Assembly (NCBI RefSeq): GCF_035083965.1
Contig: NC_089723.1
Coordinates: 6,595,501 to 6,659,500, forward strand
Length of the DNA stretch: 64,000 bases
Direction: 5' to 3'
Source: Branchiostoma lanceolatum
Taxonomy: Eukaryota > Chordata > Leptocardii > Amphioxiformes > Branchiostomatidae
In this document: piece by piece, positions 3,750-43,784 of the stretch
Layout of the letters: every line of letters starts with the position of its first letter
How positions within the stretch are numbered: position 1 is the stretch's first letter
Position numbers and translations under genes: made by a program
Notes under the pieces: generated by a model
Database searches by the model: none
What the model was told of the DNA's origin: nothing
The model's input: the letters and a program-made list of their open reading frames with translations, nothing else

Positions 3750-3752
3750 TTA

Positions 3753-6850: not shown

Positions 6851-6852
6851 TT

Positions 6853-7805: not shown

Positions 7806-7819
7806 CTCCTAACCACTCG

Positions 7820-7920
7820 TCTACTATTGTCTCAAACGCGAACTTAAAATCACCGCGAACACGCCATTTTCTCCCAACCGCGAAATTAAAACCACGCGAA
7901 TTTAAATGCATGCAGTATAT
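7820..7920. mobile_element. Fragment of the TACTGTAAATGCAG MITE
   Basis: Contains CTACTATTGTCTCAAACGCG, AAAATCACCGCGAAC and AAAACCACGCGAA, matching the right half of the complete copy at 10878-11054, with a degraded terminus. Confidence 0.5.
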
Positions 7921-9910: not shown

Positions 9911-9939
9911 ATTTTGCTGAAAGCTAGACCAATCAATAC

Positions 9940-10430: not shown

Positions 10431-10557
10431 ACGACACTATATTCAGAATTACCCATGTAATATTATTATCAAGCCTGTGTGTTACGCCGGGTATACAGAT
10501 ACAGACCAGAAGTAAATAACATATGTACACCGTTTCCCGCTTAAAGATGTCGTGTGT

Positions 10558-10650
10558 TCAATTAGGTTTGCTAATCAAATAGGTTTGCTAATCAATTAGC
10601 TTTGCTAATTAATCAAGATTGCTAGTCAATTAAGTTTGTAACCAATTAGC
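10558..10650 (+). repeat. Short degenerate tandem repeat
   Basis: Four to five units of about 20 bp containing (G)GTTTGCTAATCAA(A/T)TAG. Confidence 0.7.
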
Positions 10651-10877
10651 ATTTTGTTAAAACATTTCCGAGCAGGACAAGGCCTTTTAGAAATGCAAGT
10701 TATCGCCCTAACATTCAATTTGGTAAAGACGTCAAAGCAAAGGTTGCCGCACTTTCTTTGCGCCTACGCATTGCCTACGTTTAGCATGGAAAATTCCAGA
10801 CTTCTAAACAATCCAAAGGGCCTGGATTCAATTATAATGAGTGTCACGAACGTTAATGGTCTTCACTCTTAAAGTAT

Positions 10878-11054
10878 TACTGTAAATGCAGAAATGTTCG
10901 CCGTGGTTTTAGTTCGCGGATTTCGCGGTGCACTCTATATATATACCGCAAACTCAAAACCACCGCGAAAATCCGTTCCATTGTGTGACTGTGGTGCTAC
11001 TATTGTCTCAAACGCGAAATCAAAACCACCGCAAACATTTCTGCATTTACAGTA
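10878..11054. mobile_element. TACTGTAAATGCAG MITE, complete copy
   Basis: A 177-bp element with inverted ends TACTGTAAATGCAGAAATG and CATTTCTGCATTTACAGTA. The interior is rich in TTCGCGG and CCACCGCGAA. Ends starting TA are consistent with Tc1/mariner-type insertion at TA, but a TA duplication cannot be separated from the terminus itself. Confidence 0.75.
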
Positions 11055-14000: not shown

Positions 14001-14590
14001 ATTTGGTGCGTCCGAAAATTAGGAGGTTTTCCTCCTGACCTATCCGTGCTCGTCACCAATAAGGCCTCGCGTACATCACTGCCCCAGCCAATCAACACAC
14101 TGCGGGGCAGATCAAAGTCCAGCCACATCATCGAGGAACGTGAGGAAACTCCACGATCGGGGCTGCCAGGGGAGCAAATCAGCACGTTATAGTTCAATCA
14201 TTTATACGTCTGGATAATATCATACCATGGAGATTATTTTCCTCCGATAGGATGACATGCTTAGTTTGTTCATAAATGCAACCAAGGGAACGAATAAAAC
14301 AAGGGAACAATGGACCATTCACTGTGTGTAATGAGTATATGTTGACTAATGGCAGGTCGGATGAAAGTACATTTCTTCACGATTTCTTAAAATGATTCAT
14401 ATCAGAGTTATCATTTTCACAGTGGGTGTATGGTTCAGGGAAGAATGCATTTATCACAAACTTTACAATTTTGTAAGATATCGAAAATATATCCAGACGG
14501 ATTCATCATGACAGCTGACAGAGAGCGTCTTTAAGTAGACTTACCACGCCCAGTTGGAATTAAGACGCGTTCCCTGCTAAAGTAGTCCAA
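11055..14590. other. Gene-poor stretch, nothing firmly recognised
   Basis: No conserved exon could be assembled. One minus-strand segment at 13790-13860 reads ALILVYSIEAFEIRDQIQQL and ends at a good donor (GTAGGT); it is reported as a finding, not as a gene. The rest is ordinary unique sequence. Confidence 0.45.
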
Positions 14591-15764
14591 ATGAATTAAT
14601 AATTGTCAAGGAATGCCTTAAAAGATCTTAATCTAGACAGCACAGCATTGACCCGAATCGACCTAAGACTTGAATCTTCAGCAAGACAGATTGGGGATGG
14701 TCTGGGATCTTCAATCATGGCAAAACCAACTCTAACACCAACCAAACTTGTGAGAAGACTCCACAGAAAGAAAATCAGCCGCCCCAACCTTAGCACGTCC
14801 GTGGGTGGGTTTGGAGAATGTCCAAGAAGAAGAAGGCAAGAAACAAATTGGTTGAGACAAGACGGGAACCACCAACGTTCTGGAAGAAGGTATTTCTGCA
14901 AGAGTGCGGGCTCAATCCACGAACTACACCCTCTTTATTTTCTAGGTTACCGTTGTGAATGAAATGAACAGGAAAGAAATAACTAGTTCAACAAAAGGTC
15001 ATGTCAGAAAGGCACAACAATGAGGTTTAGTTTTCAACAAGGTAAAATTGGTCACTCGTTTAATACTGGGAGGATACTATACAAGGATGAAAATAATCAA
15101 CAATATTTATGAATAAACTTGATAAATGTAATAACTTGACGTGTTAGAAAAAATGAATACTCATGTTCCATGTTTTGGTCCGTGAGGCATATACATGTGC
15201 AGGTAATGGTTCATATACTTCTGGCTATATCCATTTCCGTCGTTATGGATATGCTTTTATCATTGGATTTTGCGGAGGATATTCGGGGGGGGGGGTTATA
15301 AAAGGATTAGATTGATAGTGGCTTACGGGTGGATTTAGATTCAAGGAGCTTTTCAGAAAGTATTTCCTGTGAGAGTGTGGCAAATGACACCTGGTTCCAA
15401 TTAAGCCACCTTCCCTCGCAGCGAGGAACTAATCACACATGCAAACTACGCTGTCATGGGTCGGCTCTGTTCGCTGCATTCAATTTCCCACAGGTCTGAC
15501 ACTGTTGGAGCGATGTGGTGAACTCAGCCCTAAAGGAGCGTTAACAAGCTGTGAGACCCTCATTTACCAGTCATTATCCCCATGAAGAAGGTTACGCTAT
15601 TGCTGAGGTTGCTGTGTTGTGCGTTGTAAAGCTGAACCGAGGGGAAAAGATCATGTTGGTGTTGATTATACTCCCCTAGCTGGAGATGTGAACTTTCTAG
15701 GACACTCGTGCAGTCTTGTGGACTAGTACGAATAAACTTTACTTTTGCTACACAACTACAGTAA
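14591..15764. other. No gene recognised
   Basis: Overlapping open frames on both strands at 14596-14962 give low-complexity, unfamiliar translations and look like chance. A run of ten G lies near 15286. Confidence 0.45.
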
Positions 15765-15971
15765 CAATACCTCGGACTCAATCCCGCAAATAACTTCACA
15801 AAACTTGGTTTTGGAAAATCTCTATTACGATGGATAGACATTCTGTACACAAATATTACTAACTTCACAAACCACACATTCTTCCCAAATGAAATTGAAG
15901 ACGAACGTCACTTTATCATAGATTGTTCAAGATATGAGGATAAACTCTCAAAGCTATTCACCTTTAATTGA
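15765..15971 (+). pseudogene. Chimeric LINE remnant: RT piece joined to ORF end
   Basis: Open frame ending at TGA 15969-15971. The first part reads FTKLGFGKSLLRWIDILYTN, the F-GFG-xxxxWIxxLYxN block of LINE reverse transcriptases. The second part reads EIEDERHFIIDCSRYEDKLS, the (V)EDExHFxxxCxxYxxxR block found near the C terminus of the same class of ORF. In intact elements these blocks are hundreds of residues apart, so an internal deletion joined them. The sequence downstream ends in GAATAAACAATAT, like the LINE tail at the left end of the window. Confidence 0.55.
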
Positions 15972-16125
15972 TATCATGATGTAATTGATATATGGTAAGT
16001 TAAGGGGAAACCCTAGCTGGATAAACCTTGGAGGTTTCTGGTTTCCCTGCATGTTTCTCTTTAAATTTAGGTTCATTTGCTGTTCATTCATGTTATATTT
16101 TACGTGCGAATAAACAATATTTTTA
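15972..16125 (+). mobile_element. LINE 3' untranslated tail
   Basis: Noncoding DNA after the chimeric LINE frame, with an imperfect hairpin around GGGAAACCCTAGCTGG and CTGGTTTCCC, ending at GAATAAACAATATTTTTAAG. Confidence 0.4.
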
Positions 16126-16339
16126 AGCTTTCATTTGTTAGTCATTCCTTGCTCTCACGGAAAGTAAGAATGCTGCACATGTTCTCAAGTCCGATCCGTA
16201 ATCCCCCCGCATGCATGAATGCGCCAGTTCACGACAGTGCTGTCCATATCAAGCAGATTCCATTATTCATGGCATTTTCAAACGGGATGTTACTGAGATA
16301 CCACGAAAAGAGCCTTGGCCTTGCTCCAGGGGCCAGGTA

Positions 16340-16809
16340 CACTACCAAAAATGGCTTTTCTTTTTCTTGTTTCTCCTTATTCACAGAAAAAAATCCTTAA
16401 AATAAGATAACTTTCTAAGTTAAAAAAATCGTTTTGTCCACGAGATAAGAATTTTTTTCTTGAATATTTTTTCTTACAAAATATTTCTTTAAGTAAGATT
16501 TTTCAAGAAAAAGAAGAGAAAAATTGTAATATTTTCTAAGATATAAGAAAATTAATCTTGAAGTCAATATAAACAAGAAATATAAACTTGAATTTCTTGA
16601 AATTTTTGAGGGAGAAAATATTTTGAGAAATAGTTTCTTAACTTAAGAGATTTAGGAAAATGTTCCTCGTTTTGGGAATTTCCGTGGAAAGAATCAGACT
16701 GATTCTTCAAATTTTCATTCTTATTCATTCTTGAAATTCTTGATATGAGAAAATTTGTCCATGAGTTAAGAAAAACGAGAAAAACTAGAAAAGCAATTAT
16801 TTTTGGTAT
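16340..16809. mobile_element. CACTACCAAAAAT element, short copy
   Basis: The left end is CACTACCAAAAATGGCTTTT; the right end is AGCAATTATTTTTGGTATT, its imperfect complement. The interior is A/T-rich with many AAGAAAAATC / TTTTTCTTG motifs, so the whole can form a long imperfect hairpin. Part is duplicated in reverse at 18617-18785, and a larger relative spans 57082-59968. Confidence 0.6.
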
Positions 16810-16979
16810 TCAGCAAAGGTCACTCCAACTCTTCGTCAAAATTGAATTAAACATTGCCGCACGCCATTCGTCAATTGTAAGTGAAGAGCTAGCATTAATC
16901 CATAGATCTGCTTATGGCCTTTGCCAGACAAGTGGTCGTTGTCAAGTACCCTGCGGCCATTACCGTTACAGATTGTAGA

Positions 16980-18610
16980 AAAGCAGTAATTTCTAGTCTA
17001 ACAGATTAGATCACGTATAAGGTACTTGAACAATACTAGCAATAAATCTTGTCAGAAAAACCGTTGAAGTTGCTAGGTAATTATGAATTACCCTACGGTC
17101 ATCGCTGTTATATATTATAAAGAAATAGTCTTTGTATGATCAGGTCAAGTATGTAAAGTTCGTAATTAAGTCCAGCAATCAATTTTGTAATACAGTTAAA
17201 ACGTTTATGCTTGTAACCAGTCCAGAACAACAAGTTGTTATCTACCAATGATGTTCTTTCTTTCATAAACAGATTAGATACGATGTCGGATTAAAAGCTC
17301 GATGAAAGGCTTAGTTGATATTACAAAGAGTAAATCCCGGCTGAATGGCACGTATCAAGTCATTAATAATATTCATATTGATATATGTATATACATCTTT
17401 TATGAAAGGAATAAAAGAGTTTGTTTTGCATCGAAGTAGTCATATAGATACATAGATCTTTGTGGTAGATTAATCTTTGATATAAGCAACAGCATGATAT
17501 TTGCTTTGATGAAATGTACGAGTTAGGCACATCTCATATTCAATACAATACACTTGCACGAGAAGGTCATACCACAGGGAGTGATAAATTAGTAAAGGAT
17601 TGCTTTCAATATACAATGATTCTAAAAATGTATGTTTTAGAATTCCTTTACAGAGAACTAAGCCAATAACACAGGCGATGATATACCAGACCTGACCAAT
17701 GCGAAACGTGGATACAAATGGAAAAAAATTAAGATTCTGTTTCAACCATTTTGCAATTCTTTATATACCCGGGGAAAATGTTTAAGGAAGTTGCAATATT
17801 GAGAGCACAGATATATGTTCGCCATATGCACTGAGAAATAATTCATGCCTTACTCTGCAAATCCGTAAACATAACTGCCGATGTACCACAATATTGCTCA
17901 CATAATTTTACGGTGGCTTATACCCTAATCCCATAAGCACGTCTTGAAAATTAAAGAAAAGGTAAGCGTGTCGCCAGCCTGACTGTCGCCTTCCGATATC
18001 CTGAGGTAATGTTACGGACGAGTTTGCTATTATATACTTCTATTACAAACGTCAACAAGATTAAAGCCTTACAGGATAACAGTCCCGGGCAATAGACATT
18101 TTCCAGAAATACACTATAATATGGGGAAACAATTTTGAACTAAAATGTCCCGAGAGAACAACGTTAACCATGACCTTTACGTGACACCAATAAATATGGT
18201 CAGCCTTGATATGGTGGAAATATACTCTTGGGACAAGATGTACACGCAGAAGACGTAGTATTGGCGCTGGCATTATGGTTTCTATTAGACGATGAATAGT
18301 AATGGCAATCACTCACCCAGTGGCTTTTTAGTTAACATGTGGATGTCTTTATCATTGCCATACACCGCTGGCACCTTAAACCTATTTGGAGGACACTAAA
18401 CTGACAAGGAAAACATCCTGTAGTAAAATTTGGTACGTACGTTTTTTAGTTAGCTTTGAGATTCTAGGACGAGAGAAAATGTGTTCATTGTAGGTTTACC
18501 AATCGAATGTCTATGTAGTGCACCACCTACATTGTTACTCAGCGAGGTCGGTTGTAAGAACGTCCTGACTACATCGACAGCACGGTGCAGCTATAGAAGT
18601 GGTGCTTCTC
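16980..18610. other. No gene recognised
   Basis: A/T-rich unique-looking DNA. Minus-strand open frames near 17470-17745 and 18061-18312 have no recognisable product. Confidence 0.45.
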
Positions 18611-18616
18611 TGGATA

Positions 18617-18785
18617 CAATACTACCAAAAATAACTTTTCTTGCTTTTCTCATTTTTTTTTTAACTCGTGGACAATTTTTTTTTCATATTAAGAATTTCA
18701 AGAATGAATAAGAATGAAAAATTGAAGAATTAGTCTGAATCTTTCCATGGAAATTTTCAGAACAAGGAACATTTTCCTAAGTCTT
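18617..18785 (-). mobile_element. CACTACCAAAAAT element, truncated copy
   Basis: Begins ATACTACCAAAAATAACTTT and continues as the reverse complement of about 16640-16809 (shared AAGAATGAATAAGAATGAAA and CAAGGAACATTTTCCTAA blocks), then stops abruptly. Confidence 0.6.
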
Positions 18786-19141
18786 TCCATCCAGCCTTTT
18801 TTATTCACTACCAACACGAAGTAATTGAAATCAAGCCCGTAAAAATTCCTCGGCGTGTGCCAATAAACTGGGCGGACGGGCAACACTCCCGGCACCGTAG
18901 AGATACCCGGGAGCACCCGATGGCACAGTTACCAGGCTATGTTTGATATGTTGTCCTCACAAAATCCTTCATGTACATTTGTAAATTCGCGCACGTGTAT
19001 ACAGATATGTTTGGGTAAATCTCCAGAAAGTCAATAAAAGCACAACAGCAGCAAATCTTCTTGATAGTAAACAAAGATTAAACTCGACAATCATGATATG
19101 GATGAAGAACAAAGCTCGCATCTATATTAATAACAATAACA

Positions 19142-19375
19142 TCCGACGTCATGAGTATTGTTTGCTCATCCCATCTGTCATCTCCATTGAGCAATAATGA
19201 CTTGACAGATCGATTTGAAATGTGTGTTTCCAATGGAAAATTGCATTCATTCGTGCTACATGATTAATTAAGATGCCTCTTTTAATAACCAGCATACCAG
19301 CATATTCCTAATGGTAGTAAATTGGAGATGAGTTACTGCGTCAATCACAATATGATGTAGATATAATACTGGGAT
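19142..19375 (+). repeat. Repeat R1, copy a
   Basis: GACGTCATGAGTATTG, then CATCTGTCATCTCCATTGAG and ATAATGACTTGACAGATCG. The reverse complement of this ~230-bp block is found at about 29345-29577. Confidence 0.75.
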
Positions 19376-21125
19376 CATAGTGAATAGATGAACTGCGTAT
19401 ATAAAATATTCCTACATATGATCTCATACCACGTAGGTGAATTTTGTAAAACCATGAGACTTTTACAATACAATATATATAACGGTAAATAAACCAGTGT
19501 TATGCTTATCAATTTCAATATATTGTATGGTAATATAAATACGTTTTAATTAGCTCGTGAAATTAATCACATTTCATAGGCTTTGAAAACATCAACCCAC
19601 TACATATACCCTCTTGCAATCTACCAAAATCTCTACTCAAATCTTTGTAAAGCGAAGAATAAGGTCAAACAAAACGTTCTAAATCAAGGTATATCTTGCA
19701 CTGCATTCTATACCTTCCATTTTAGGCATACTGTCAGCTACTGTTATGAGGTTTCCTTTCCCTTAGTTTCGCGAGCCTACAAAAACCCCGGCGACGATTT
19801 TCAGTGAGTTCCCACATTACAACGAAGTCCTATTTTTTCATCATGGACATCACTATACATTGTGATAGTGTTGTTTGAACTTATTATGTATAGAAATGAC
19901 TAAACAAATTGAGTTTCGAACTCCCATTTCCGCGCCCTGATATTGTTTTAAAATCTTGTTTTAAAATCTTCCAACCCACTCATCATTGAAAGTGTGGGAC
20001 TTTTTATTTTGCACTGCTTTCAGAAAAGAAATCAAACCCCGCATTAGTACCGTAGATATAGAACCTTACTTTAGAACAGCAATATAGTATGATCTTGTAT
20101 TGCATGTATACCTTTTGTTTTACCTTACATTTGTATTTCGACACTGTTGTCAACATGCAATTAGCCTACGGGCATGAATTTGCAATAAACTATTATTGTT
20201 TTGGTAGCCTTTTACTAGTCACCTGCAAAAAATAGGTACCTTATAGTACAGGGAATGCTCAACGAAGATTGAATGAGACAGGGCAGTGTTACCCAGTCTT
20301 TCCTTTCCTCATGAAACTTGAAGCAAAGCCTCGGGCCAGCTTTGCTCCGGTTAACCTTCGCGCCCTGGTAATCCATTCATCCTGTAAAAGGCTGCCCACG
20401 GTTTCACTAGAACCCAAGCCTCGGGAACAAACTGCGATGTAATTACAAAATCCGTTGCGCTATCACTTACCTTTAGTGCAGAACGCCTGCGGTCATTGCC
20501 AATTACACTAAGTGGCTTTGACGATAGACAAGCTGTCGAAGATTTTCTTGATCTTCCTGGTTCGCTTCTGCGTGCACTCTCGCTCTACCATAACCAGGCG
20601 ATGGAGCTAGCTTTTTTTTATGGAATCGTGGCGTAATAACTTACAAACCCGTGAACAATGGAAGCTCAAGGGAAACAAAGAATGACGGCTATCCTCCGTG
20701 ACAGCTTTGTGGATGCCCCTCTTCGGCATGCAAAGGAATTTACGACATTAGAACATTTTCCGGCCATTTCCTCAAATTGGCCCATCAATTCAATTTGCGG
20801 AATCGTCATGTAATAGGCCACCGTTTGTTGATTGATTATGTTCAGTTGAGAAGGTCTCTCCAAGGATTTAAACCATACAGATTTCTTTAAGAACTCCTCG
20901 CATTTAATCAGTAGACCAACGAAAATTCCGAAGTCATGAATGATGACAAAAAAGCGTTTGCGTCCTCTTTTTTTACATTATTGATGCACATATCTCCCTA
21001 TGGGGCTACGTGACAGCAATAAGAGGAACAATTACGACGATTGCTCATTGACAAACTGCGCCCATTTGTATTCAGAGAGGTAATTTGCTCACGGAAGCGT
21101 GTGGATATGCCGGTGACAGGCAGAC
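19376..21125. other. No gene recognised
   Basis: Unique-looking DNA. A 65-codon minus-strand frame at 20666-20863 is not recognised. Confidence 0.45.
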
Positions 21126-21267
21126 ACGACGTCACGCTGTGATAACACGACCAGCAACCCGAACCACCATCATCAACCCCGCGCTGCCACCACTGACAGA
21201 ACGCACGGTTCTGGAGAGAAAGTTGTACTAACAACGACAAGCTAGTTCCGCAATATTGCACGGTACC

Positions 21268-21518: not shown

Positions 21519-21739
21519 TACCCTGAAGTTGTACTAACAACGACAAGCTAGTTCCGCAATAGTGCACGGTACCGTGAATCATATTAAACTGTAGTAACTG
21601 TTACTATACCAACAGCAGCCGGAACCATCAGTATTAACCCTGCCGACACCGCTGACAGAGCGCAAGGTCCTGGAGAGGAAGTTGTACTAACAACGACAAG
21701 CTAGTTCCGCAATGATACACACTACCTTAGAAACTGTAG

Positions 21740-21990: not shown

Positions 21991-22207
21991 TATATAGTTA
22001 ATATCTTACAGCAGCCCAAACCATCATCGTTAACCCTGCCGCCACTGCTGACAGAGCGTACGGTCCTGGAGAGAAAGTTGTGCTAACAACGACAAGCTAG
22101 TTCCGCAATGATGCACGGTACCGTGAATCATTTCCAACTGTAGCAACTGTAGCAACTATACTTACAGCAGCCCAAACCATCATTATTAACCCTGCCGACA
22201 CCGCTGA

Positions 22208-22210
22208 CAG
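22208..22210. repeat. Target-site duplication CAG, left
   Basis: CAG next to the CACTG terminus. The identical CAG at 29202-29204 follows the other terminus. Removing the element and one CAG restores CCGCTGACAGAGCGCA as in the uninterrupted R2 units (for example near 21650). Confidence 0.8.
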
Positions 22211-22235
22211 CACTGCACGAAAAGTGGGATTTACC

Positions 22236-22355
22236 AAATTTACCTGGAAGGAGTAAATTGTTGGTAAATATGGTGTATGACATTTACCCACCTTTACCAT
22301 ACATTTACCAAGTAAATACCGGTAAATCCCTGTTAAATGTGTGTAAACCCTTGCA
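22236..22355. repeat. Left subterminal ATTTACC repeats
   Basis: Many copies of ATTTACC, CTTTACC or GGTAAAT in 120 bp, mirrored in the opposite orientation at the right end (28750-29190). Such motifs next to CACTA termini usually bind the element's own DNA-binding protein. Confidence 0.6.
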
Positions 22356-22374
22356 AAACTGTATCTCAAGTGCA

Positions 22375-25065
22375 GTTACTTGGAGTGCATATAACATCCC
22401 TCCCCGCCCTTCGATAACAGATATCACAGGGCGGGGGACTTGGAGTGCATATAACATCCCTCCCTACCCTTCGATAACAGATATCACAGGGCGGGGGACT
22501 TGGAGTGCATACAACATCCCTCCCTACCCTTAGATAACAGATATCACAGGGCGGGGGATTTGGAGTGCATATAACATCCCTCCCCGCCCTTCGATAACAG
22601 ATATCACAGGGCGGGGGATTTGGAGTGCATATAACATCCCTCCCCGCCCTTCGATAACAGATATCAGAGGGCGGGGGACTTGGAGTGCATATAACATCCC
22701 TCTCCGCCCTTCGATAACAGATATCACAGGGCGGGGGACTTGGAGTGCATATAACATCCCTCCCCGCCCTTCGATAACAGATATCACAGGGCGGGGGAAT
22801 TGGAGTGCATATAACATCCCTCCCCGCCCTTCGATAACAGATATCACAGGGCGGGGGAATTGGAGTGCATATAACATCCCTCCCCGCCCTTCGATAACAG
22901 ATATCAGAGGGCGGGGGACTTGGACTGCATATAACATCCCTCCCCGCCCTTCGATAACAGATATCACAGGGCGGGGGACTTGGAGTGCATATAACATCCT
23001 CCCCTGCCCTTCGATAACAGATATCAGAGGGCGGGGGTCTTGGACTGCATATAACATCCCTCCCCGCCCTTCGATAACAGATATCACAGGGCGGGGGACT
23101 TGGAGTGCATATAACATCCCTCCCCGCCCTTCGATAACAGATATCACAGGGCGGGGGACTTGGAGTCCATATAACATCCTCCCCGCCCTTCGATAACAGA
23201 TATCACAGGGCGGGGGACTTGGAGTGCATATAACATCCCTCCCCGCCCTTCGATAACAGATATCAGAGGGCGGGGGACTTGGAGTGCATATAACATCCCT
23301 TCCCGACCTTCGATAACAGATATCACAGGGCGGGGGACTTGGAGTGCATATAACATCCCTCGCCGCCCTTCGATAACAGATATCACAGGGCAGGGGACTT
23401 GGAGTGCATATAACGTCCTCCCCTGCCCTTCGATAACAGATATCAGAGGGCGGGGGACTTGGAGTGCATATAACATCCCTCCCCGCCCTTCGATAACAGA
23501 TATCACAGGGCGGGGGACTTGGACTGCATATAACATCCCTCCCCGCCCTTCGATAACAGATATCACAGGGCGGGGGACTTGGAGTGCATATAACATCCTC
23601 CCCGCCCTTCGATAACAGATATCACAGGGCGGGGGACTTGGAGTGCATATAACATCCCTCCCTGTCCTTCGATAACAGATATCACAGGGCGGGGGACTTG
23701 GAGTGCATATAACATCCCTCCCCGCCCTTCGATAACAGATATCACAGGGCGGGGGACTTGGAGTGCATATAACATCCCTCCCCGCCCTTCGATAACAGAT
23801 ATCACAGGGCGGGGGACTTGGAGTGCATATAACATCCCTCCCCGCCCTTCGATAACAGATATCACAGGGCGGGGGACTTGGAGTGCATATAACATCCCTC
23901 CCCGCCCTTCGATAACAGATATCAGAGGGCGGGGGACTTGGACTGCATATAACATCCCTCCCCGCCCTTCGATAACAGATATCACAGGGCGGGGGACTTG
24001 GAGTGCATATAACATCCCTCCCCGCCCTTCGATAACAGATATCACAGGGCGGGGGACTTGGAGTGCATATAACGTCCTCCCCTGCCCTTCGATAACAGAT
24101 ATCAGAGGGCGGGGGACTTGGAGTGCATATAACATCCCTCCCCGCCCTTCGATAACAGATATCACAGGGCGGGGGACTTGGAGTGCATATAACATCCCTC
24201 CCCGCCCTTCGATAACAGATATCACAGGGCGGGGGACTTGGAGTGCATATAACATCCCTCCCCGCCCTTCGATAACAGATATCAGAGGGCGGGGGACTTG
24301 GAGTGCATATAACATCCCTCCCCGTCCTTCGATAACAGATATCACAGGGCGGGGGACTTGGAGTGCATATAACATCCCTCGCCGCCCTTCGATAACAGAT
24401 ATCACAGGGCGGGGGACTTGGAGTGCATATAACGTCCTCCCCTGCCCTTCGATAACAGATATCAGAGGGCGGGGGACTTGGAGTGCATATAACATCCCTC
24501 CCCACCCTTCGACAACAGATATCACAGCGCGGGGGACTTGGAGTGCATATAACATCCCTCCCCGCCCTTCGATAACAGATATCACAGGGCGGGGGACTTG
24601 GAGTGCATATAACATCCCTCCCCGCCCTTCGATAACAGATATCACAGGGCGGGGGACTTGGAGTGCATTTAACATCCATCCCCGCCCTTCGATAACAGAT
24701 ATCACAGGGCGGGGGAATTGGAGTGCATATAACATCCCTCCCCGCCCTTCGATAACAGATATCAGAGGGCGGGGGACTTGGACTGTATATAACATCCCTC
24801 CCCGCCCTTTGATAACAGATATCACAGGGCGGGGGACTTGGAGTGCGTATAACATCCCTTCCCACCCTTAGATAACAGATATCACAGGGCGGGGGACTTG
24901 GAGTGCATATAACATCCCTCCCCGCCCTTCGATAACAGATATCACAGGGCGGGGGACTTGGAGTGCATATAACATCCCTCCCCGCCCTTCGATAACAGAT
25001 ATCACAGGGCGGGGGACTTGGAGTGCATATAACATCCCTCCCCGCCCTTCGATAACAGATATCAC
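22375..25065. repeat. 60-bp satellite, about 45 units
   Basis: The unit reads GGAGTGCATATAACATCCCT, CCCCGCCCTTCGATAACAGA, TATCACAGGGCGGGGGACTT. Most units are exactly 60 bp; 59-bp variants lie near 23161 and 23581. Inside each unit CCCCGCCC and GGGCGGGG pair around a loop of about 19 bases holding GATAACAGATATC. Two diagnostic changes (CAGAGGG for CACAGGG; AACGTCCTCCCCTGCCC for AACATCCCTCCCCGCCC) recur together at multiples of 60 (22981, 23401, 24061, 24421), showing duplication of blocks of units. Long minus-strand open frames result from the period being divisible by three and are not read as genes. Confidence 0.95.
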
Positions 25066-25740
25066 CCCACCACTCTTAGATAACAGAGATAACTCAGGGC
25101 GGGGGAATCACTTTGCATATAAACCCAAATAAGCTAGAATAGTCACATGGTATATTGTGGTACCAATTGTCTGTCAGTCCTTTCCTGCAGTTAGTTACAT
25201 GTGCCTATGGGCAACAACTTACAATTGACTCATTATAACACACACACACAAGATAAGAAGCTATACAAGTGTACTCACAGTGTATACAGCCCACCCCAAC
25301 CCCCACCACCTACTGAGATCATGAGTTACAACTATGAATTTGTTTGTTAATACATGTCTGTTCATGGATTTACTATGAGGCAAATGGTTTTCCTCTATCT
25401 CATTTAATGTTAAATATTCTCATTAAGTCTTAGACCCTACTTTGATGAACTTTATATCTACAAAGAATAATCAAAAATAAAGAAAGTCTCCAAATCCATG
25501 TAGTATACACAAATGTTATGATCTAAATGTAACTGTTACCAAGCTGTTACTTATAACAAAGTTAATAGTTTCTGATCACAATAACTCATAAATACACAAT
25601 GTAAGACAAGCAAGAAAAAGGGGGACCAAGATGAAAACAGAAACTTTGAGGAAAACGTGAATCGAACCCAGGAGGAAGGTCCTGATCTTTAGTTTGACTG
25701 TCACAGTACAGATAAAGTTTCTTAAAAACCAGAAAGGTCA
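25066..25740. other. Spacer between satellite and promoter-like segment
   Basis: A/T-rich DNA without recognised coding sequence. Near 25650-25710 the minus strand has a tRNA 3'-half-like stretch (AAAGATC, then GGGTTCGATTC), too incomplete to call. Confidence 0.45.
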
Positions 25741-25744
25741 ATTT

Positions 25745-26129
25745 CTGACCTGCAGGTCAACATCCTATAGGTCATTACAATACTGTCCTATGATTGGTCT
25801 GTTGGATTACGCATGCGCATTGAGTGGGCGGCATTATTCAGAAAACCGTTGGTCCGGGCAGGTCCGGGGTCCACAGTAGAGATGAATACAGGGCGTTACG
25901 CGCCTCTCGGCGCTATAAATGGGTCCACCACAGTCTACATTGGTGGACCATCGATCTGGGAGAGGCTTATGAGTCGAGGAGGAATCTGGCTTAAACTCAA
26001 ACGTTCGGAAAACTATGGTGACTGACGTATCAGCGATGTGAGTTTGGTCGCCCCCCTCCCTCCTTGCACCGGACACGGCTGGCTGTGCATTTTATTTTGG
26101 ACTGCTCTAAGGCTCGCTGAGTACAAACA
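25745..26129 (+). promoter_or_regulatory. CpG-rich promoter-like region of the small spliced gene
   Basis: Base composition changes abruptly to CpG-rich. An inverted CCAAT box (ATTGG, 25793-25797), an NRF1-type core GCATGCGC (25811-25818) and a GC box GGGCGG (25826-25831) occur within 40 bp, followed by a GC-rich stretch leading to the start codon at 26130. These are typical of TATA-less housekeeping promoters. The start site is not determined. Confidence 0.5.
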
Positions 26130-27518
26130 ATGAGGTGAGAAAATAGACCTTGGTACACTTAAGAATGTTTTAGATAAAAAAATATGTTCAGTTACCTTGT
26201 CTTAGTTTTATTTATTGACATGTTATCGCCAGAAACACATGTCTTCAACTAACCTGCCCCCCTCCCCATGAGAAAATTTGTAAATTATTTTCAACTTGTT
26301 CATAATCAAATAGTACTTGGCATTAAACCTGGCACGAATGTCAGTTGACTTACTTGTTTGTACTTGTCAGTTGTGAACAGGTATTCGTGTCGGGTTTAAG
26401 ATACGAAACAGCAAACACTCGAGATATAGACTGATCATGAGATCTCCCCTAGCCTCAAATTTGCCCCTGATTGGGTCATATGGGGACAATATCTATGGGA
26501 TGAGATGAAAAAGAAATCACAAGACACAACAGAAGCAATAGTGTGACGTGATAGTTAGAAATTTCGAATGGTTATGTTTTCACTTCAGTTGAAGCTTTGG
26601 TCACCATATTATATTTCAAGTAGAACATTTACGCTACATGTACAAAATTTGAGGATGCTCAGGTTTTTTAAAAATCTATTTCATGGTTTCCTATTCTATA
26701 TACCAGTACAGCAGCAGTGGGTTCACCGTTATGAGGAGGATGGTTGGGAACAAAGCAAACAACTGCCAGAAGTTCAGCCGCTGAGTACCTCAAGTGCTGC
26801 GACAGGCTCCAAAGGTAAGACTACAGTCCTGCACGCTCATCAACATCATCATATTTGTCACACTTGAGTATATTGGGAGTCATGATTCTCCATAATCCAT
26901 TGTCCCTTGTTTGTTGCTAGCAGTTGTGATAGGATAAGATCGAGGCACAAATTTCATCCGTGAATATCTTAGTGTTGGAAGAAAGTTAAGCACTGTATAA
27001 CGAGGCACAATAGTTACGGTATACCTTTATACCATCTTCGGGATGAGGAGGCTCAGCCTGTGGTAACCCCGTCTCGAACGATACTCATGTGTTGTACTTC
27101 AGACTCTCCCAATGTTTATCCAGCCGTGTTTTGAACTCGTTGACTCTCTTAGAATCCACCACAGATTGTGGTAGTGCATTCCAGTCACTAACTACTCTAA
27201 CACTGAAGGACTGGCTCCTGAGCCTACTCCTGGCTAGGGGAACCTCGAGCTTATGACAAAATCATTTGACTTGTTTCTTAATCATGCATGTATTTTTTGT
27301 CACTTTCAACCATATACTAGTACAGGACGGATTTCCATGTAAATTGCTGTTCAATGATTTTTTTATTTTGTAGGAACCGGCTCATCACAAGAGGGACTCC
27401 AACCTCACCCAGGAAGTACATGTACAACATGCAGACACAGAAGAAGGCAGCGATGGACTCTGATGTAGATGAGAATGGGGAGAGGAAGGTTATACACGAG
27501 CAGTTCTACAGCACATAA
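26130..27518 (+). CDS. Small three-exon gene, 64-residue protein of unknown family
   Basis: Coding exons 26130-26134 (ATGAG, donor GTGAGA), 26770-26814 (acceptor CTGCCAG, donor GTAAGA) and 27374-27518 (acceptor TTTTGTAG, stop TAA). Phases agree across both introns and total 195 bases. The product begins MRSSAAEYLKCCDRLQRNRL, continues with TSPRKYMYNMQTQKKAAM and ends in an acidic stretch and HEQFYST. It is basic in the middle, with no signal peptide or membrane segment. A CpG-rich promoter-like region precedes it and AATAAA follows at 27596. Intron 2 holds a reverse CR1-like fragment. I do not recognise the protein. It lies wholly inside the CACTG-ended element, so it may be a captured host gene or an element gene. 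The exon model is mine; another acceptor (after TATACCAG, 26706) would give a different frame and an early stop. Confidence 0.5.
27000..27252 (-). pseudogene. CR1-like LINE, 3' end fragment
   Basis: The minus strand from 27252 to the TGA at 27087-27085 reads LARSRLRSQSFSVRVVSDWN, LPQSVVDSKRVNEFKTRLDK and HWESLKYNT. The (R)xxxFxxRxVxxWNxLPxxVVxxxxxxxFKxxLD pattern is the terminal block of CR1/L2-class LINE ORFs. About 85 bp of probable 3' UTR follows. It lies within intron 2 of the small spliced gene. Confidence 0.7.
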
Positions 27519-27595
27519 AACCAACCTGTGTTCAGAGTTTGGCCAGACCTCATATGTTTCCTTGCCTGAAACTCAATGTCTGTTTTTTTACCAAA

Positions 27596-27601
27596 AATAA
27601 A
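27596..27601 (+). promoter_or_regulatory. Polyadenylation signal AATAAA
   Basis: Canonical hexamer 78 bases after the stop codon of the 64-residue gene. Confidence 0.5.
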
Positions 27602-27999
27602 TTTCTATATCTGATGGATTAGGCTGCTTGACTCAGGGTGACTATCGCCTTCATAACCTCTGTAGAATATACAGCAACTTGTATGTCAGTCCAATTGCTC
27701 TATACAGCAGTGAATATACCCTGTCTGGCTGTGATTATGATGGTGATGATACATTATGTCCTCCACCCTGCCCCAAATGGATTACTTGTATCAAGGAGGT
27801 TGCTTGTATACATGTATCACTCCAATCTTGTTGTGAATACAGAAATGTTAAAATTTGAATGGCTGAATTTCCCAAACCTTTCTTTTATTATGAATGATGA
27901 TGAAGTATTGCTTGTATAAACATGTAACTAGTAGTACATGAGTCATGACACTGATACTGTTGGCAAAGTGAAGAACAGTGCAGACCCCACTGAATGTAA

Positions 28000-28260
28000 A
28001 AAAGGTAAAGCAGTCATCCTTGATTGATTGAGGTGAAGTATGATGCTATCTCAAGTAGTTAAAAAGTGGAAGTGCAATTCGGATTTGCTACACTCACATG
28101 TTTTGTCGACCACTACTCTTCTCGATAAGTGTGTTGAGTTCTTTTACGTGCAAAGGTTTGAGGCTTATTTCTGAGGCTCCTTCATACAGGGGGCCGCTGA
28201 CTTAACATCGCCATCCGAATTGACAAATACTATCCCTTTCAACACGTCCGATCTGGGTTT
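28000..28260 (+). repeat. Dispersed repeat D1 (GTAAAGCAGTCATCC), copy 1
   Basis: Contains GTAAAGCAGTCATCCTTGAT, GGTGAAGTATGATGC, ACTCTTCTCGATAAGTGTG and TTCTTTTACGTGCA. Copies occur at 43785-43990 (same strand) and 37840-38110 (reverse). It is probably a SINE-like or MITE-like dispersed family. Confidence 0.6.
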
Positions 28261-28749
28261 GACCCATTCAATTCTTTTACTTGTGTCATCGCGACTTCCT
28301 TGCAATGTTACTGTTTTCTTTGCATAGCTTTGCTAACTTTATCATACTGGCACATTTGTATTCCATAGATGACGTCATGTTAATATTGTAAACAACTACA
28401 ACAGTGATAACATTGTAAAAAATGTGCACAAAACCTATGATACATGTACATGTATCTATAGTTAAACCATTCTCGTATATAGTTTCCCAAAGGGTATGTT
28501 TGTCAGTGCAGAATGATAGAGACTGATATGTTAAGATTGTGTCTGATGATAAACCGAATAATGTATTGAGTGATAAATGTTGTTTGTAAGCATGTATCAC
28601 TATATATATATATGGTTTATGTGTGTTGTTGATACAAGCCAGTTAATCAGTGTATCTGTATAAACTGTCAATGTTGCTATGTTTATCCAATAAATATTGC
28701 TGAGTTTTGCCCCAAACCATGCGTTTGTGCGTCATACTCAATCATAATC

Positions 28750-29190
28750 CATGGTAAATGTGGGTAAAGGAGGGTAAATATCTCTTTTAGTAAAGGCATG
28801 TATACATCCTCTGTAAATATGGGTAAATTTAGCTATGAGAATATTTGGTAAGGTAAATCTCGGTAAATGCGCTTGATAAATGTGAGAAATGCTACGTACG
28901 GTAAATCTGGGTAAATGCACCGAATATATGCGAGAAATACTCCCTACGGTAAATCTCGGTAAATGCCCTGAATATATGAGAAATACTCGCTACGGTAAAT
29001 TTCGGTAAATGCATGATTTACACGACCTCGGTAAATGTGGGTAAATAAGGCAAACATTACCAGCTATACCTTGCGGGTAAATGCGGGGTATATTCGCACA
29101 TTTACCGATAGATAAATGCTGATAAATCTCTGGTAAATGTAACCTTTACACGGCTTTACATTACATTTACCATTGTGGTAAATTCCACTT
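28750..29190. repeat. Right subterminal GGTAAAT repeats
   Basis: About twenty copies of GGTAAAT or GGTAAA, often paired 10-12 bp apart (GGTAAATGTGGGTAAA). The left end carries the complement, as expected for the inverted ends of one element. Confidence 0.75.
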
Positions 29191-29201
29191 TTCGTGCAGT
29201 G

Positions 29202-29280
29202 CAGAGCGCACGGTCCTTGAGAGAAAGTTGTACTAACTACGACAAGCTAGTTACGCAATGATGTACCATACCATGAATCA
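29202..29280. repeat. Remainder of R2 unit and right CAG duplication
   Basis: CAG (29202-29204), then AGCGCACGGTCC, GTTGTACTAACTACGACAAG and CTAGTTACGCAATGATG. This is the second half of the unit broken by the transposon. Confidence 0.8.
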
Positions 29281-29344
29281 TTTCTACATCTGAAAAGCAG
29301 ACAAAACTGAAAGAAACTCTGTAAGTGTTATAAGTAACGGTAAG

Positions 29345-29577
29345 AATATAACTATGGTGGCATTATTATCTACATCATATTGTGATTGACGCCGTAACTC
29401 ATCGCCAATTTACTACCATTAGGAATATGCTGGTATGTTGATTTTCAAAATAGGCCTCTTCATTAATCATGTAGCACAAATAGATCGTGGGAAACACACA
29501 TTTCAAATCGATTTGTCAAGTCATTATTGCTCAATGGAGATGACAGATGGGATGAGGAAACAATGCTCATGACGTCC
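29345..29577 (-). repeat. Repeat R1, copy b (inverted relative to 19142-19375)
   Basis: CGATTTGTCAAGTCATTATT, GCTCAATGGAGATGACAGAT, GGGATGAG and AATGCTCATGACGTC, the reverse complement of copy a with scattered differences. Confidence 0.75.
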
Positions 29578-29629
29578 GTGAATAGTTTTACCAGGTTGGT
29601 AAGTCACTGAATAAAAAGACTCTTTTTTT

Positions 29630-30160
29630 TTATACAACCAAGAGATTTATTCAACGTCTGCGTCTATAAAAATTAGACAAAATTCAAAGGAAAATCTGGG
29701 AAACGCTAAGACCGTGAAATAATCAACATGTCTAGATATAGCCAACATTGTATTTTGAGTAGTCTCCTGTTACAAAAATTAAGTTCCAATTTGCATAATT
29801 TGCACTTCATTGTGCACATCTCTGCCCAAGCTACCTGCATATTAAATAACACAGAAATCTGTCGCTCCTTTGTTCAGTTATTCTCCTTGGAAGATTTTGA
29901 CAAAAACGCCAATGCAGTTCCAGTCTCACATACCAGGGGGGGCCAAAATCGACCTTGACCTTTGTTCTCCCAACACCTACCTACATACCAAATATCTTTA
30001 CAATCCATCCAGACATTCTTGAGTTATGCTGACTTCAAGAATACGGACAAACACACAAACACACACGCAAACACACACGCAAACACACACACAAACACGT
30101 TCAAAACAATATCTCCATGAAAAAGTCTCTATTTTTCATGGAGATATAAATCTCAGTCAA
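29630..30160 (-). repeat. GGTCAAGGTCGATTTTGG dispersed repeat, reverse copy
   Basis: Contains CAGGGGGGGCCAAAATCGAC with CTTGACC, an A/C-rich run of ACACACGCAAACACAC, then an inverted terminus ATCTCCATGAAAAAGTC and ATTTTTCATGGAGAT. The same ordered parts are found at 37190-37515 (reverse) and 44135-44500 and 54885-55500 (forward). Confidence 0.65.
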
Positions 30161-30244
30161 TGTCATTTGCCACATGTATGCCTCCTATAAACGCTTCTAC
30201 CATGTACTAACCGTGTAAATTATGTCTACGCCTGAAAAGAAGAC

Positions 30245-30490
30245 AAGATACAACGGAAACTCTGGGAAACGCCAAGTGATTCATATATGTATAATGTAAT
30301 GATTAAAACATAATTTCAAGGGTGGCTGATTTTCCCGTAATTGGAAAAACCGCATGACCATTGTAGCCAACGAATTTGTGGCAACTTTGCAAAAATCAAA
30401 AACTGTTCCTCATATTATCCTTACCATTCCCTCAATTATTGTCTAATTATGCATAGAAAAATAATCTGCATTTCATAAACGTTTTTATCT
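30245..30490 (+). repeat. Repeat R3, copy b
   Basis: AACTGTTCCTCATATTATCC, then TTACCATTCCCTCAATTATT and ATAATCTGCATTTCATAAAC, matching 21740-21990 in the same orientation. Confidence 0.65.
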
Positions 30491-30679
30491 ATGATTCTTA
30501 CCTTAATTGTGAATGGCCGTAATATGTACAGTATTGAATACATGTACACTATGGATTTTGAGTATGGATTATGACTAAGGTTTGTGTATATATTTGTATG
30601 TATGGTTTTGTGGAAAAGTTTTGTGTATGTATTTGCGTATATGTTATTTTACATGTATGTATTGATATTACGTATTATA

Positions 30680-30785
30680 TAATATGTGTTCAATGGCCCC
30701 GGCCCCACTGGAAAGTAGTGTCAAATACTACACTGAGGTGGGCCACCCTGGCTAAAGAAAACAGAATTAATTAAATAAATAGTAT
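30680..30785 (+). mobile_element. Possible LINE 3' tail
   Basis: CCCCGGCCCCACTGGAAAGT, then TACACTGAGGTGGGCCACCC and TGGCTAAAGAAAA, ending in ATTAATTAAATAAATAG. The 'ACTGxxAAGTG…GxxACCCTGGCTAAA' arrangement with an AATAAATA end resembles CR1/L2-type 3' tails. Weak. Confidence 0.35.
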
Positions 30786-31490
30786 CTGGTATTATGTAAA
30801 TTTCAGACTGATAAAGTGTGAGAGTTTTGTTTACCCTATTGGCAATTCAACTTGTTTTAATGCCTGTGGTTTTTCTGTGGTGGCATTGTGATTGAACACA
30901 GAATACAGGCCCCATTACGCCCCATTTTTCCACCATTACTAATTGAGTATCGTAGTCAAGAAATGGTTTATACTAAATAGAACACTGACAGCAAAGTTTC
31001 TTATGGGTGACCAAGATAGCTCCACGAGATCGTTTTATATTCATTGCTTTTGAAGGATTTATCATTGATTCTGTGGTTATAATTTTTGCCAAATAATTAA
31101 CATTTGACACGAAGAGCTTCCATTTCGTGCCGATTTGCTTGATAAAGGGTGCACATCTGTCGCTGTACCGACGGAGATATGAGCCGGGTGAACCAATCGT
31201 GACCTCTGTTGCTTTATGGGCCGTGAAGGGCATGGACGCTGCTGTTGTTTGAATAGAGGTTCTGCTAAAATCTCTTTCACCACATCCATGCACTGATAGT
31301 CCTGCAAAGGAAACGTGTCTTCGTGCCTCATAAACTCAACAAAACTGGAACACATTACAAGATTTGTGGGACATTAAAAACTATATCAAAATGAAGAATT
31401 ATCGACAAAACGTGGGAGAATGATAGAAATAAATGCTTTGTCAACGCAATTTAATTTAAAATATTGGTGGTAAATTTTTCTCCTCATAAT
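30786..31490. other. No gene firmly recognised
   Basis: A 92-codon minus-strand frame (31077-31355, with DYQCMDVVKEILAEPLF) has a coding-like composition but no family that I recognise and no supporting neighbours. Confidence 0.4.
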
Positions 31491-31494
31491 TGCT

Positions 31495-32215
31495 TACGTT
31501 GGTCTAAAGAAAAGCAGAGCAAATTAGGCTTTTGCAAATCCACGCCGTACCTTATTGTTTATCGATAAGCTTTTTCTGAATGGGACAAATACGATATCTA
31601 TACGGTTATGCTTTATAAGAAAATCTGTTATGACGTTAATCATCGACATCAATCGGAGTATAGAAAGAAATGGTTCAGCATCGCAATCTACGAAAAACAT
31701 TGGTGAAAATTTATTCATATTGCTATACTAATAAAAAGCAGAGAAAATACACACCGTTCCTTTTTGCTATTGATAAGATGGCATTTATCTGAAATGGGAC
31801 AGATACAATATATATACGGTTATGCTTTAGAAGAAATTCGTATAATTTGATGTTAATTAGACTGGCTTAATGTTCACGTTATTGGTCGAATGAAAAGCAG
31901 AGCAAATGAAGGTTTTGAAAATCCACACCGTTTTTTATTGCCTATTGATAAGATGGTATTTATCTGAAATGGGACAGATATGATATCTCTACGGTTATGG
32001 TTTTTAAGAAATTCGTATAATTTGATGTTAACAATACTGGTTTAATGTTTCCGTTGGTCTAATGAAAAGCAGAGCAAAATAGGGTTTTGCAAATCCGCAC
32101 CGTCCTTATTGCCTATTGATAAGATGACATTTATCTGGAATGTGATAGATACGATATCTCTACGGTTACGCTTTATAAGAAATTCGTATAATTTGATGTT
32201 AATAACACTGGCTTC
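31495..32215 (+). repeat. Tandem repeat, about four ~170-bp units
   Basis: Units share AATGAAAAGCAGAGCAAA (or close), TATTGATAAGATGGCATTTA, TCTGAAATGGGACAGATA, ATCTCTACGGTTATG and AAGAAATTCGTATAATTTG. They become more similar toward the right. Confidence 0.8.
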
Positions 32216-32539
32216 ATACGATCATGTCGTAAAATTAATGACCCCTACTCACCTTTCTCTCGTGTGCCCTTGAAACATGTGGAAAGGCGCAACAAGCCCA
32301 ATGGGGATTCTTTGCTAATGGGGAAGGGAGCAGTGGGGAATATGTGAAGGACAGCAATAAAACTAGCCAATTATGAGATAACGAGACGTTATAAAGGATG
32401 GGACAACTTGATATATAGCGAAACTTATTTGATTATTCTATTTAGTGTCAAGCATGTCTGGCTGCATCCGTACGATTCCACTTTCTGATAGGAGTATATG
32501 ACATACGTATAGTGTTGGAAAACGCCGAACAGATAGTAG

Positions 32540-32645
32540 CATTACGCCAAAAATAGTCACTCAAGCAACTGGATAAAATTTTGAAACAGACGTTTCAGAC
32601 AGCATCCGCTATCTTTCGTCAGTGACTAAGAAAAGATTTGGCAGA
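32540..32645 (-). mobile_element. Penelope-like element tail fragment
   Basis: The minus strand reads TCACTGACGAAAGATAGCGG, ATGCTGTCTGAAACGTCTG and CCAGTTGCTTGAGTGAC. A related tail (GACAGCGGGTGCTGTCAG, AGTTGCTTGAG) is at 63045-63135. GACGAAAGA…GAAACGTCT tails are common downstream of Penelope-like ORFs. Confidence 0.4.
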
Positions 32646-32649
32646 ACCA

Positions 32650-33715
32650 GGTTTTATACCAAAACTCTGAATAGATATGTTAATGAGGTGAAGACAATTT
32701 CAGATGGTTCAATAGAATAGATGGTTCAATTGAATAGATAATAGCATTGTCTATATGGACAATGGAAAAGAAATAAAGAGGTAGGAAGCAAATATTAGGT
32801 AAAATGGACGTTAAACGCCCTAGCTATGTGCTATGTTGAAATACCTTGAAATCCTTACATAATCAAAAATGTGGACAAAGAAAGCATATAAAAGCAAAAA
32901 ATGATGAGTTATGTATTTCTGAATAATATACAGAAGGCCACTGAAAGAGAAAAAAAACTAACTTAACAAGGCTATTTAACGACATAACTTTCTAATTGAA
33001 AGTCATAGTGGGTTTCTATGGTGTTTTAAGCCTGACTACATAATACTTGTCACAATTAATGATCATCCATAGAAGACCTACGATACAGCCATTGATATGG
33101 GCCATTCTACCGGCGCCCTCACGCAATAACACTGGGTGACCTTTTATGTCAACCCGATGACCCGAAGCTAACTCTCTGCGTCAGGATTCCCCATTTATAA
33201 TTGCAGGGCTGTTGTTGTCTGACCTTTGTGTAGGGAAAAAGCGCGCCAATGACGAAAGGTCATCTGTTCGGATCTGAAATGTCCAAATGAGAGGGGTGAG
33301 GAGAGGGAAAGGGTGATTTCCATGGCCACACAAAATATGCTAATTTTATTTTGACGTGTCTTAATTATCCACCTTAATGACTCCACAAGTTGTTTGTTTT
33401 ATTCAGCTCTCCATTAGTGTAATTTTTTACAAATTTTACACTACTCTTCCTGGAGTCCGCCGAGATTAAATCAAATACAGGAACAAAACTTAAACAATGG
33501 TTAGACAGTAAATCACAATCACATGATGAACTTGAAAAGTGAGCGGGACACTTTGTTGATCAGAAGAGAAACACTGTTTGCACTTTATGTATGATATTCT
33601 GTTGTTATTCTAAACATCACTGTAATTTAGTTCAAAGCCAGCATAATTAGAATAATGACAAAGCACACTACCCATGGGGTCCTAAACGGAGTAGGAGCGT
33701 GTGATCTGTCAGTGG
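32650..33715. other. No gene recognised
   Basis: Unique-looking sequence with no supported exon. Confidence 0.45.
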
Positions 33716-33727
33716 ATGCATCAGAAA

Positions 33728-33812
33728 TTGCGTGTGTGCGTGTATGTACGCGTATGTGTGTGCGCGCGTATATGTGTGAGTGTGTTTGTTTGTGCGTGCG
33801 CGCGTATGTGGT
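33728..33812 (+). repeat. GT-rich microsatellite
   Basis: Imperfect alternating GT/GC run, for example GCGTGTATGTACGCGTATGT. It is capable of Z-DNA but otherwise an ordinary simple repeat. Confidence 0.85.
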
Positions 33813-34139
33813 TTGACACATGGCAATGCTTTTTCACAAGGCTCCTAGAAACATTGATGTTGTTTCGTGTAGCGTGGTGTCCCCGCCAGTATTGATAGAG
33901 TTGCGACCTCTTACGACTCAACATGGTACTGCACTGCGGGAGCAACTTTTGGATCGACGTGACTTCTATATTGTTACAAGACTTCAGCAACACTTTATCT
34001 CGGACGTAACATCAACTTTAATTTTGCATCATTATGTTTGTCCTAACCTAAATGATAAACATAATTCCCATACACATGTAGTTCTGATTTCACATTCAGT
34101 GTTAATGAAAGTGAAATAATTATATTTGCAGTCATAACA

Positions 34140-34554: not shown

Positions 34555-34977
34555 TCACTGAGCCGTGTCTTTGTTCATCAGTAGACCGATAAGTTCTTCA
34601 TCTGAGACGCTCAGCTCTTGTAACGCACCCATGGCCTGTGCCAGTTGCACAGCTAAGACATGTTTACACACCAATGACTCTCCTCTTATCAGTGTAGCAT
34701 AGGTGAAGAACGAACAAGGACAGTACAGTCCCGATGGTAGACAGGTGTAGAGCTTTCCTGAGCTTCCCACCACCAGGTATAGGTGTCGTCCGCTTGGAGA
34801 GGTGACGTGAGTGACCCCTTTCCTGTCCACTATGTCCAGCGAGGCCAACAGAGAGCTTCCAAAGACATCCTGCAAAGCTGAGAGAAGGTCATCTGACATG
34901 TAACGGTTGCTGCTGTACAAATGTTTGACCTCAACCAGGAGTTGAGTAGCCACTGTCCCCAACTGACTACACGCCAT
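34555..34977 (-). CDS. ZSWIM7: ZSWIM7, SWIM-domain recombination factor (Shu complex)
   Basis: A single uninterrupted frame of 140 residues, the same length I recall for the vertebrate protein. The SWIM zinc-binding motif is complete: C86-x-C88, then C104-x-H106. It is preceded by the family's VDRxxVTxxxSPSGRxxYxVxGSS stretch (residues 50-73) and an FGSS motif at 39-42. The C-terminal LSVSDEELxxLL also agrees. ZSWIM7 pairs with SWSAP1 to support RAD51 filaments in homologous recombination, mainly in the nucleus. The vertebrate gene has several exons and here there are none, so this is either an intron-poor locus or an old retrocopy with an intact frame. It is divergently arranged with PUSL1, start codons 779 bp apart. 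Degenerate copies of its own ends flank it on both sides. Confidence 0.9.
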   Translation of the reverse strand: MACSQLGTVATQLLVEVKHLYSSNRYMSDDLLSALQDVFGSSLLASLDIVDRKGVTHVTSPSGRHLYLVVGSSGKLYTCLPSGLYCPCSFFTYATLIRGESLVCKHVLAVQLAQAMGALQELSVSDEELIGLLMNKDTAQ

Positions 34978-43780: not shown

Positions 43781-43784
43781 AAAA

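Follow-up and report, generated by a model that had tools for sequence, protein, structure and literature searches.

A CACTG-ended DNA transposon insertion of probable EnSpm/CACTA type with probably captured genomic DNA in Branchiostoma lanceolatum

A 64-kb window of the amphioxus Branchiostoma lanceolatum genome (contig NC_089723.1, 6,595,501 to 6,659,500; all positions below are those of this window, the whole stretch analyzed) contains a 6991-bp block with exact boundaries at 22211-29201 and the structure of a DNA transposon. Its left terminal inverted repeat (TIR; 22211-22236, + strand) starts with CACTG and its right TIR (29176-29201, − strand) ends with CAGTG. The left end and the reverse complement of the right end are identical at 25 of 26 positions from CACTG and divergent beyond. 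A copy of CAG lies on either side (22208-22210 and 29202-29204), as a 3-bp target-site duplication. The terminal sequence that pairs with its inverted partner is CACTGCACGAAAAGTGG. Between its TIRs the element comprises a left subterminal region, a satellite array, a stretch referred to here as the cargo, and a right subterminal array.

To reconstruct the empty site, the left and right flanks were joined with a single CAG and aligned to sibling units of the local repeat. The joined sequence matches the sibling units at 21603-21716 (91.2% over 114 columns) and 22005-22113 (91.7% over 109 columns) through the junction, and the unit at 21152-21254 with 84.5% identity over 103 columns and a 2-base gap left of the junction. 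Because the joined flanks align through the junction to three sibling units, the whole block entered one local-repeat unit as a single net event. Thus, 22211-29201 is a real, single DNA-transposon insertion. This bears out the first-pass annotation, which had proposed a genuine insertion from the CACTG termini, the CAG flanks and the restoration of sibling repeat units upon excision.

The inverted repeat was compared with chance using 10 first-order Markov shuffles of the window (12-base exact seed, spacing 60 to 20000), none of which contained an inverted pair matching at 23 or more of 26 positions. The actual window holds 79 diagonals of at least 23/26, which derive from other repeats, so the inverted repeat by itself is not rare and is not the argument for an insertion. 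Seven CACTG/CAGTG pairs have arms that match at 15 or more of 20 positions, and a 3-bp direct flank repeat was seen only for the 22211/29201 pair. An automatic 3-bp duplication test on the outermost arms of inverted pairs picked 3752/3996 and 37293/55412 and missed the element, because its arms extended into the flanks. BLAST of the element body, with the satellite masked, detected no second copy within the 64-kb window; the query matched itself and its ends, its end repeats matched one another over short lengths, and the remaining matches were those of a dispersed repeat and those of a border unit to the satellite. An exact 17-base element end had no matches in viral_contigs. Separately, a pair of inverted arms of about 230 bp and 86% identity (19145-19381 and 29351-29576; outer ends GACGTCATGAG) encloses the local repeat units together with the element. 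No clear duplication was seen around these arms, which are perhaps the ends of an older transposon hosting the insertion.

Both ends of the element are dense in the motif GGTAAAT. The left end (22211-22377, + strand) carries six copies in mixed orientation, two forward and four reverse, within 22211-22370, and the right end (28740-29201, − strand) carries 18, with 16 in one orientation and two in the other. Against these 24 copies in 629 bp, the remainder of the window, satellite excluded, has seven, and no more than three arose in any of 500 shuffles of the ends. Successive GTAAA in the right end follow one another at an interval of exactly 10 bp, approximately one helix turn, in 8 of 18 cases. 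By their motif density and spacing, the arrays resemble a putative binding-site array for a transposase or an accessory protein.

The element therefore combines CAC..GTG TIRs, a 3-bp duplication and dense subterminal repeats. Transib and ProtoRAG elements generate a 5-bp target-site duplication, which does not agree with the 3 bp seen here. CAC..GTG ends with 3-bp duplications are described as consistent with EnSpm (PMC12730594), and CACTA elements are described with direct and inverted repeats set close together in the subterminal regions (PMC8978399). A Chapaev3 element is contradicted by the duplications, which are TWA in the Chapaev3 elements examined (PMC4079192) and CAG here. Thus, ends, duplication length and subterminal repeats appear to fit the EnSpm/CACTA branch (CMC group), in agreement with the CACTA-type reading made at first pass. 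Since no transposase was found, this filing is structural, and it leaves room for a Harbinger element.

Adjoining the left end is a 60-bp satellite (22378-25065), for which tandem-repeat detection gives 44.8 copies at 95% match, in line with the approximately 45 copies counted earlier. The consensus unit holds a GC-rich inverted repeat, CCCCGCCC...GGGCGGGG, that folds as a hairpin in silico. Four linked variants are common to units 18, 29 and 35; unit 11 shares three of them. The recurrence of a linked set across units suggests that the satellite underwent block duplication. At the border between satellite and cargo, a degenerate satellite-like unit (about 25070-25122) matches the satellite units at 77-79%.

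The cargo (25066-28739, + strand), which is CpG-depleted and probably captured, was delimited by us at the end of the satellite and the onset of the right-end motifs. The cargo and the right end (25066-29201) were scanned against Pfam in six frames, which detected no transposase and no family, with one chance-level match. Within the cargo, a promoter-like local CpG peak (25750-26150, + strand) has a CpG observed/expected ratio (o/e) of 0.82, between stretches at 0.14 and 0.52, and contains TATAAA at 25914-25919. Just 3' of this TATAAA lies a perfect 8-bp inverted repeat, GGTCCACC...GGTGGACC (25922-25949). Downstream, three putative exons can be placed on the + strand. The first would end with ATGAG (26130-26134) before a donor at 26135 that ranks in the top 0.32% of GT sites. 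Putative exon 2 (26707-26814) has an acceptor at 26707 in the top 1.5% and a donor at 26815 in the top 0.13%, and putative exon 3 (27374-27620, 3' limit approximate) has an acceptor at 27374 in the top 0.58%, a frame ending at TAA 27516-27518, and AATAAA at 27596. These ranks, among the 3757 GT and 3622 AG sites of the window, come from a simple weight scheme, and weaker alternative splice sites are also present in the region. A second AATAAA lies at 28689, and the cargo ends about 45 bp beyond it.

The spliced frame from the ATG at 26130 reads MSTAAVGSPL and stops at codon 11, at an in-frame TGA in putative exon 2 (26732-26734). Peptides of spliced frames 0 and 2, with X at stops, match no Pfam family at E values up to 10, a hand-made splice covering frame 1 matches none at E up to 1, and the spliced frame-0 peptide has no PDB match at E 10. 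NCBIfam returned no matches for four proteins, and a search of viral_contigs with the peptide of putative exons 2-3 gave 27 pattern stretches, of which tblastn confirmed none. For the unspliced frame that runs through putative exon 2, nine PDB matches have an E of at most 5; the strongest, an Erh1-Mmi1 fusion (E 0.049), and Kelch domain protein 2 (E 0.6) were taken as chance, as was a chance-level Pfam match to Card1 CARF (E 0.22) on the same frame. In codon scoring, spliced frame 0 reaches 21.5 bits, a value equaled or exceeded by 1 of 2214 window segments and by none with at most one stop. However, frame 2 of the same sequence reaches 21.3 bits, and the codon score is therefore no evidence for a reading frame. 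The first-pass annotation had described a CpG promoter and a three-exon gene without a recognizable transposase. The promoter-like peak and the lack of a transposase match in the scanned range agree with this description, and the splice signals are good, but with an early stop, no convincing family match and no favored frame the feature is called a gene-like transcription unit rather than a gene, and it is probably broken.

The cargo also contains repeats. A 58-amino-acid frame in putative intron 2 (27088-27261, − strand), ending in ...DWNALPQSVVDSKRVNEFKTRLDKHWESLKYNT, is presumably the 3' coding tail of a non-LTR retrotransposon, or long interspersed nuclear element (LINE), judging from its C-terminal signature. 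Pfam matches of this frame to Phenyl_P_gamma (E 0.017 and 0.18) are at chance level. An old dispersed repeat (27998-28255, + strand) is 73% identical over 280 columns to 37839-38110 (− strand) and 71% identical over 181 columns to 43779-43947. No Rfam family was found at the gathering threshold and no tRNAs were found; a tRNA-like B-box spotted by eye near 25.66 kb was not supported.

The window is divided into two parts by its CpG content. From 1 to 34 kb, where the element lies, CpG o/e is 0.65-1.05 per 2-kb bin, except in the two bins that hold most of the cargo (24001-26000, 0.60; 26001-28000, 0.45). From 34 to 64 kb it is 0.33-0.59 per bin, which suggests a methylation domain border near 34 kb. 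The o/e of the cargo as a whole, 0.48, is as low in none of 198 equal-sized windows of the CpG-rich flanks (minimum 0.70), and resembles the median of 264 cargo-sized windows in 34-64 kb (0.47). Stretches of 500 bp with o/e of at most 0.2 account for 6/32 in the cargo, 0/218 to the left of the element, 0/43 in 29202-34000 and 39/296 in 34001-64000, counted in windows that overlap (step 100) and are not independent. Depletion also covers 25066-25749 (o/e 0.14), 5' of the promoter-like peak. Deamination is expected to raise TpG, and TpG o/e is indeed 1.32 over the whole cargo and 1.27-1.61 in the depleted stretches. The dispersed repeat of the cargo has a CpG o/e of 0.80, and the right end of the element 1.21. 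In most invertebrates, 5-methylcytosine is concentrated on transcribed gene bodies, and promoters are hypomethylated in annelids (PMC11292947). The CpG contrast independently favors carried-in DNA, and the simplest reading of it would be a cargo that had aged within a methylated domain before its transfer to an unmethylated one. Beyond the border, a 140-amino-acid frame at 34555-34977 (− strand) has a weak, below-cut-off Pfam match to a SWIM zinc finger (E 0.022) and a single PDB match (E 0.28) taken as chance; we take it to resemble ZSWIM7.

Together, these observations make it probable, though well short of certain, that the element is a non-autonomous cut-and-paste transposon of EnSpm/CACTA type (CMC) that works like a Pack-TIR and holds captured genomic cargo. 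The host origin of the DNA between its ends is argued for by the CpG contrast and the genomic repeats inside, with no convincing protein match. A transposase encoded elsewhere would bind the GGTAAAT arrays as well as the TIRs, and would have inserted the entire block in a single unit of the local repeat. Beforehand, the element would have taken up genomic DNA, about 3.7 kb long, that came from a domain methylated in the germline. This uptake is read as having occurred at the DNA level because putative introns, the LINE tail and the old repeat are retained. Template switching during gap repair may have been the route, or two nearby ends may have moved the intervening DNA; gap filling and template switching are routes proposed for animal Pack-TIRs (PMC8277862). 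The satellite may have grown from the unit at the cargo border. Since the cargo ends about 45 bp past the AATAAA at 28689, a whole promoter-to-poly(A) unit may have been taken, which is our guess, and the captured copy has probably ceased to function as a gene. That a CACTA-type transposon has here moved a complete and still transcribed animal host unit, from promoter to poly(A) site, with the GC-box satellite as a possible promoter-proximal array and a gene-domain CpG landscape transplanted into an unmethylated domain, is a long shot.

Several observations weigh against an EnSpm/CACTA-type element with captured cargo. With no transposase and no second copy in 64 kb, neither the superfamily nor the capture is proved. 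The parts of the element outside the cargo are not all CpG-rich, as the satellite has an o/e of 0.66 and the left end 0.35, the latter from two CpG and thus too short for judgment. The identity of 34-64 kb as a gene domain would follow from its CpG content alone, and the near-equal codon scores of frames 0 and 2 fail to single out one frame. Transcription and methylation of the cargo where it now lies could also have produced the CpG depletion, and CAG also fits the CWG duplications of some Harbinger elements.

The alternative explanations partly overlap, and their probabilities need not sum to one. An ordinary large non-autonomous EnSpm/CACTA family, with an interior common to all copies, no host capture, and splice-like signals that are chance or relics of element genes, would account for a cargo with no convincing host protein match and a broken spliced frame. 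It would not account well for a cargo that, in contrast to the flanks and the right end, is depleted in CpG yet has a promoter-like peak, nor for the repeats in that cargo (the LINE tail, the old dispersed repeat), such as ordinary genomic DNA contains; we regard it as unlikely, though worth keeping in mind. If the insertion is instead old, with a gene that underwent transcription and methylation at the present site, the CpG loss would be local and uninformative on origin. The invertebrate distribution of 5-methylcytosine described above and the coincidence of the CpG peak with the promoter-like site would both agree with this. Such an account is weakened by the depletion that also extends 5' of that peak (25066-25749), by the undepleted right end, which begins about 45 bp past the second AATAAA, and by the nearly perfect ends and duplication, so that it appears improbable.

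Improbable too is an element of the same anatomy that was moved by PIF/Harbinger or some other superfamily leaving 3-bp duplications. The duplication length fits that of canonical Harbinger elements (PMC12730594), and the element yields no transposase, in 25066-29201, for comparison. On the other side stand the CAC..GTG ends with 3-bp duplications given as an EnSpm mark (PMC12730594), the dense subterminal repeats described for CACTA elements (PMC8978399), and the TWA duplications that contradict Chapaev3 (PMC4079192). Finally, two separate small insertions could have bracketed host DNA by chance, as the short ends and the host-like interior might suggest. We reject such a composite as having next to no probability, since the junction of the outer flanks aligns to three sibling units and points to one net event.

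Other repeats were seen elsewhere in the window. Three copies resembling miniature inverted-repeat transposable elements (3752-3996, 45882-46138 and 52503-52758) are 245-257 bp long and 87-89% identical, and their inverted ends (AAGCCCCCCTCTCACTGGACC) measure about 45 bp. An 80-bp tandem repeat with seven copies and an inner 20-bp period occupies 57414-57972.

The kind of event proposed here, gene capture by animal DNA transposons, is already known. Animal Pack-TIRs number 370 cases in 100 genomes, of which 323 are hAT or TcMariner, and in the main text of that study "EnSpm" is absent and the sole "CACTA" stands in the reference list (PMC8277862, Tan et al. 2021). Like the element described here, as we read it, Pack-TIRs are TIR transposons with host DNA between their ends; unlike it, they have an identified parent copy, while capture is read here from the window alone (PMC8277862). 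The first-pass annotation had judged a gene-carrying CACTA element in an invertebrate chordate noteworthy; with animal cases of capture by TIR transposons on record, the surprise is weaker than claimed. Its statement that plant CACTA elements carry captured gene pieces is documented, and with satellite arrays (PMC8978399). The CACTA-like element Jozin of Chenopodium shares TIRs, subterminal repeats, a 3-bp duplication, captured gene pieces and an internal satellite array with the amphioxus element (PMC8978399). However, Jozin is a plant element found through its transposase, with an 80-bp AP2 fragment and a satellite near its 3' end (PMC8978399), whereas no transposase was found here and the cargo spans 3.7 kb. 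The Cryptococcus CMC element CNIRT6 likewise starts with CACTG, with 24-bp TIRs and a length of about 7.5 kb, but it is fungal and encodes its own transposase, and no cargo is mentioned in its description (PMC12810828). Among animal elements, SmTRC1 is a CACTA-superfamily member with an empty-site analysis, although its TIRs start with CCC and its duplications are 2 bp (PMC1636069). Chapaev3 elements occur in animals and share CAC..GTG ends and 3-bp duplications, which in the elements examined are TWA rather than CAG (PMC4079192). Among the papers listed by literature searches, as judged from titles and the starts of abstracts, with subscription journals and Repbase Reports outside coverage, no animal gene-carrying EnSpm/CACTA element was recognized.

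If a parent locus of the cargo is found, the EnSpm/CACTA branch would join the transposons shown to carry large host-gene pieces in animals. The contrast in CpG content between cargo and flanks further suggests, for invertebrates with mosaic methylation, a cheap, alignment-free way to detect gene-domain DNA that has been captured.

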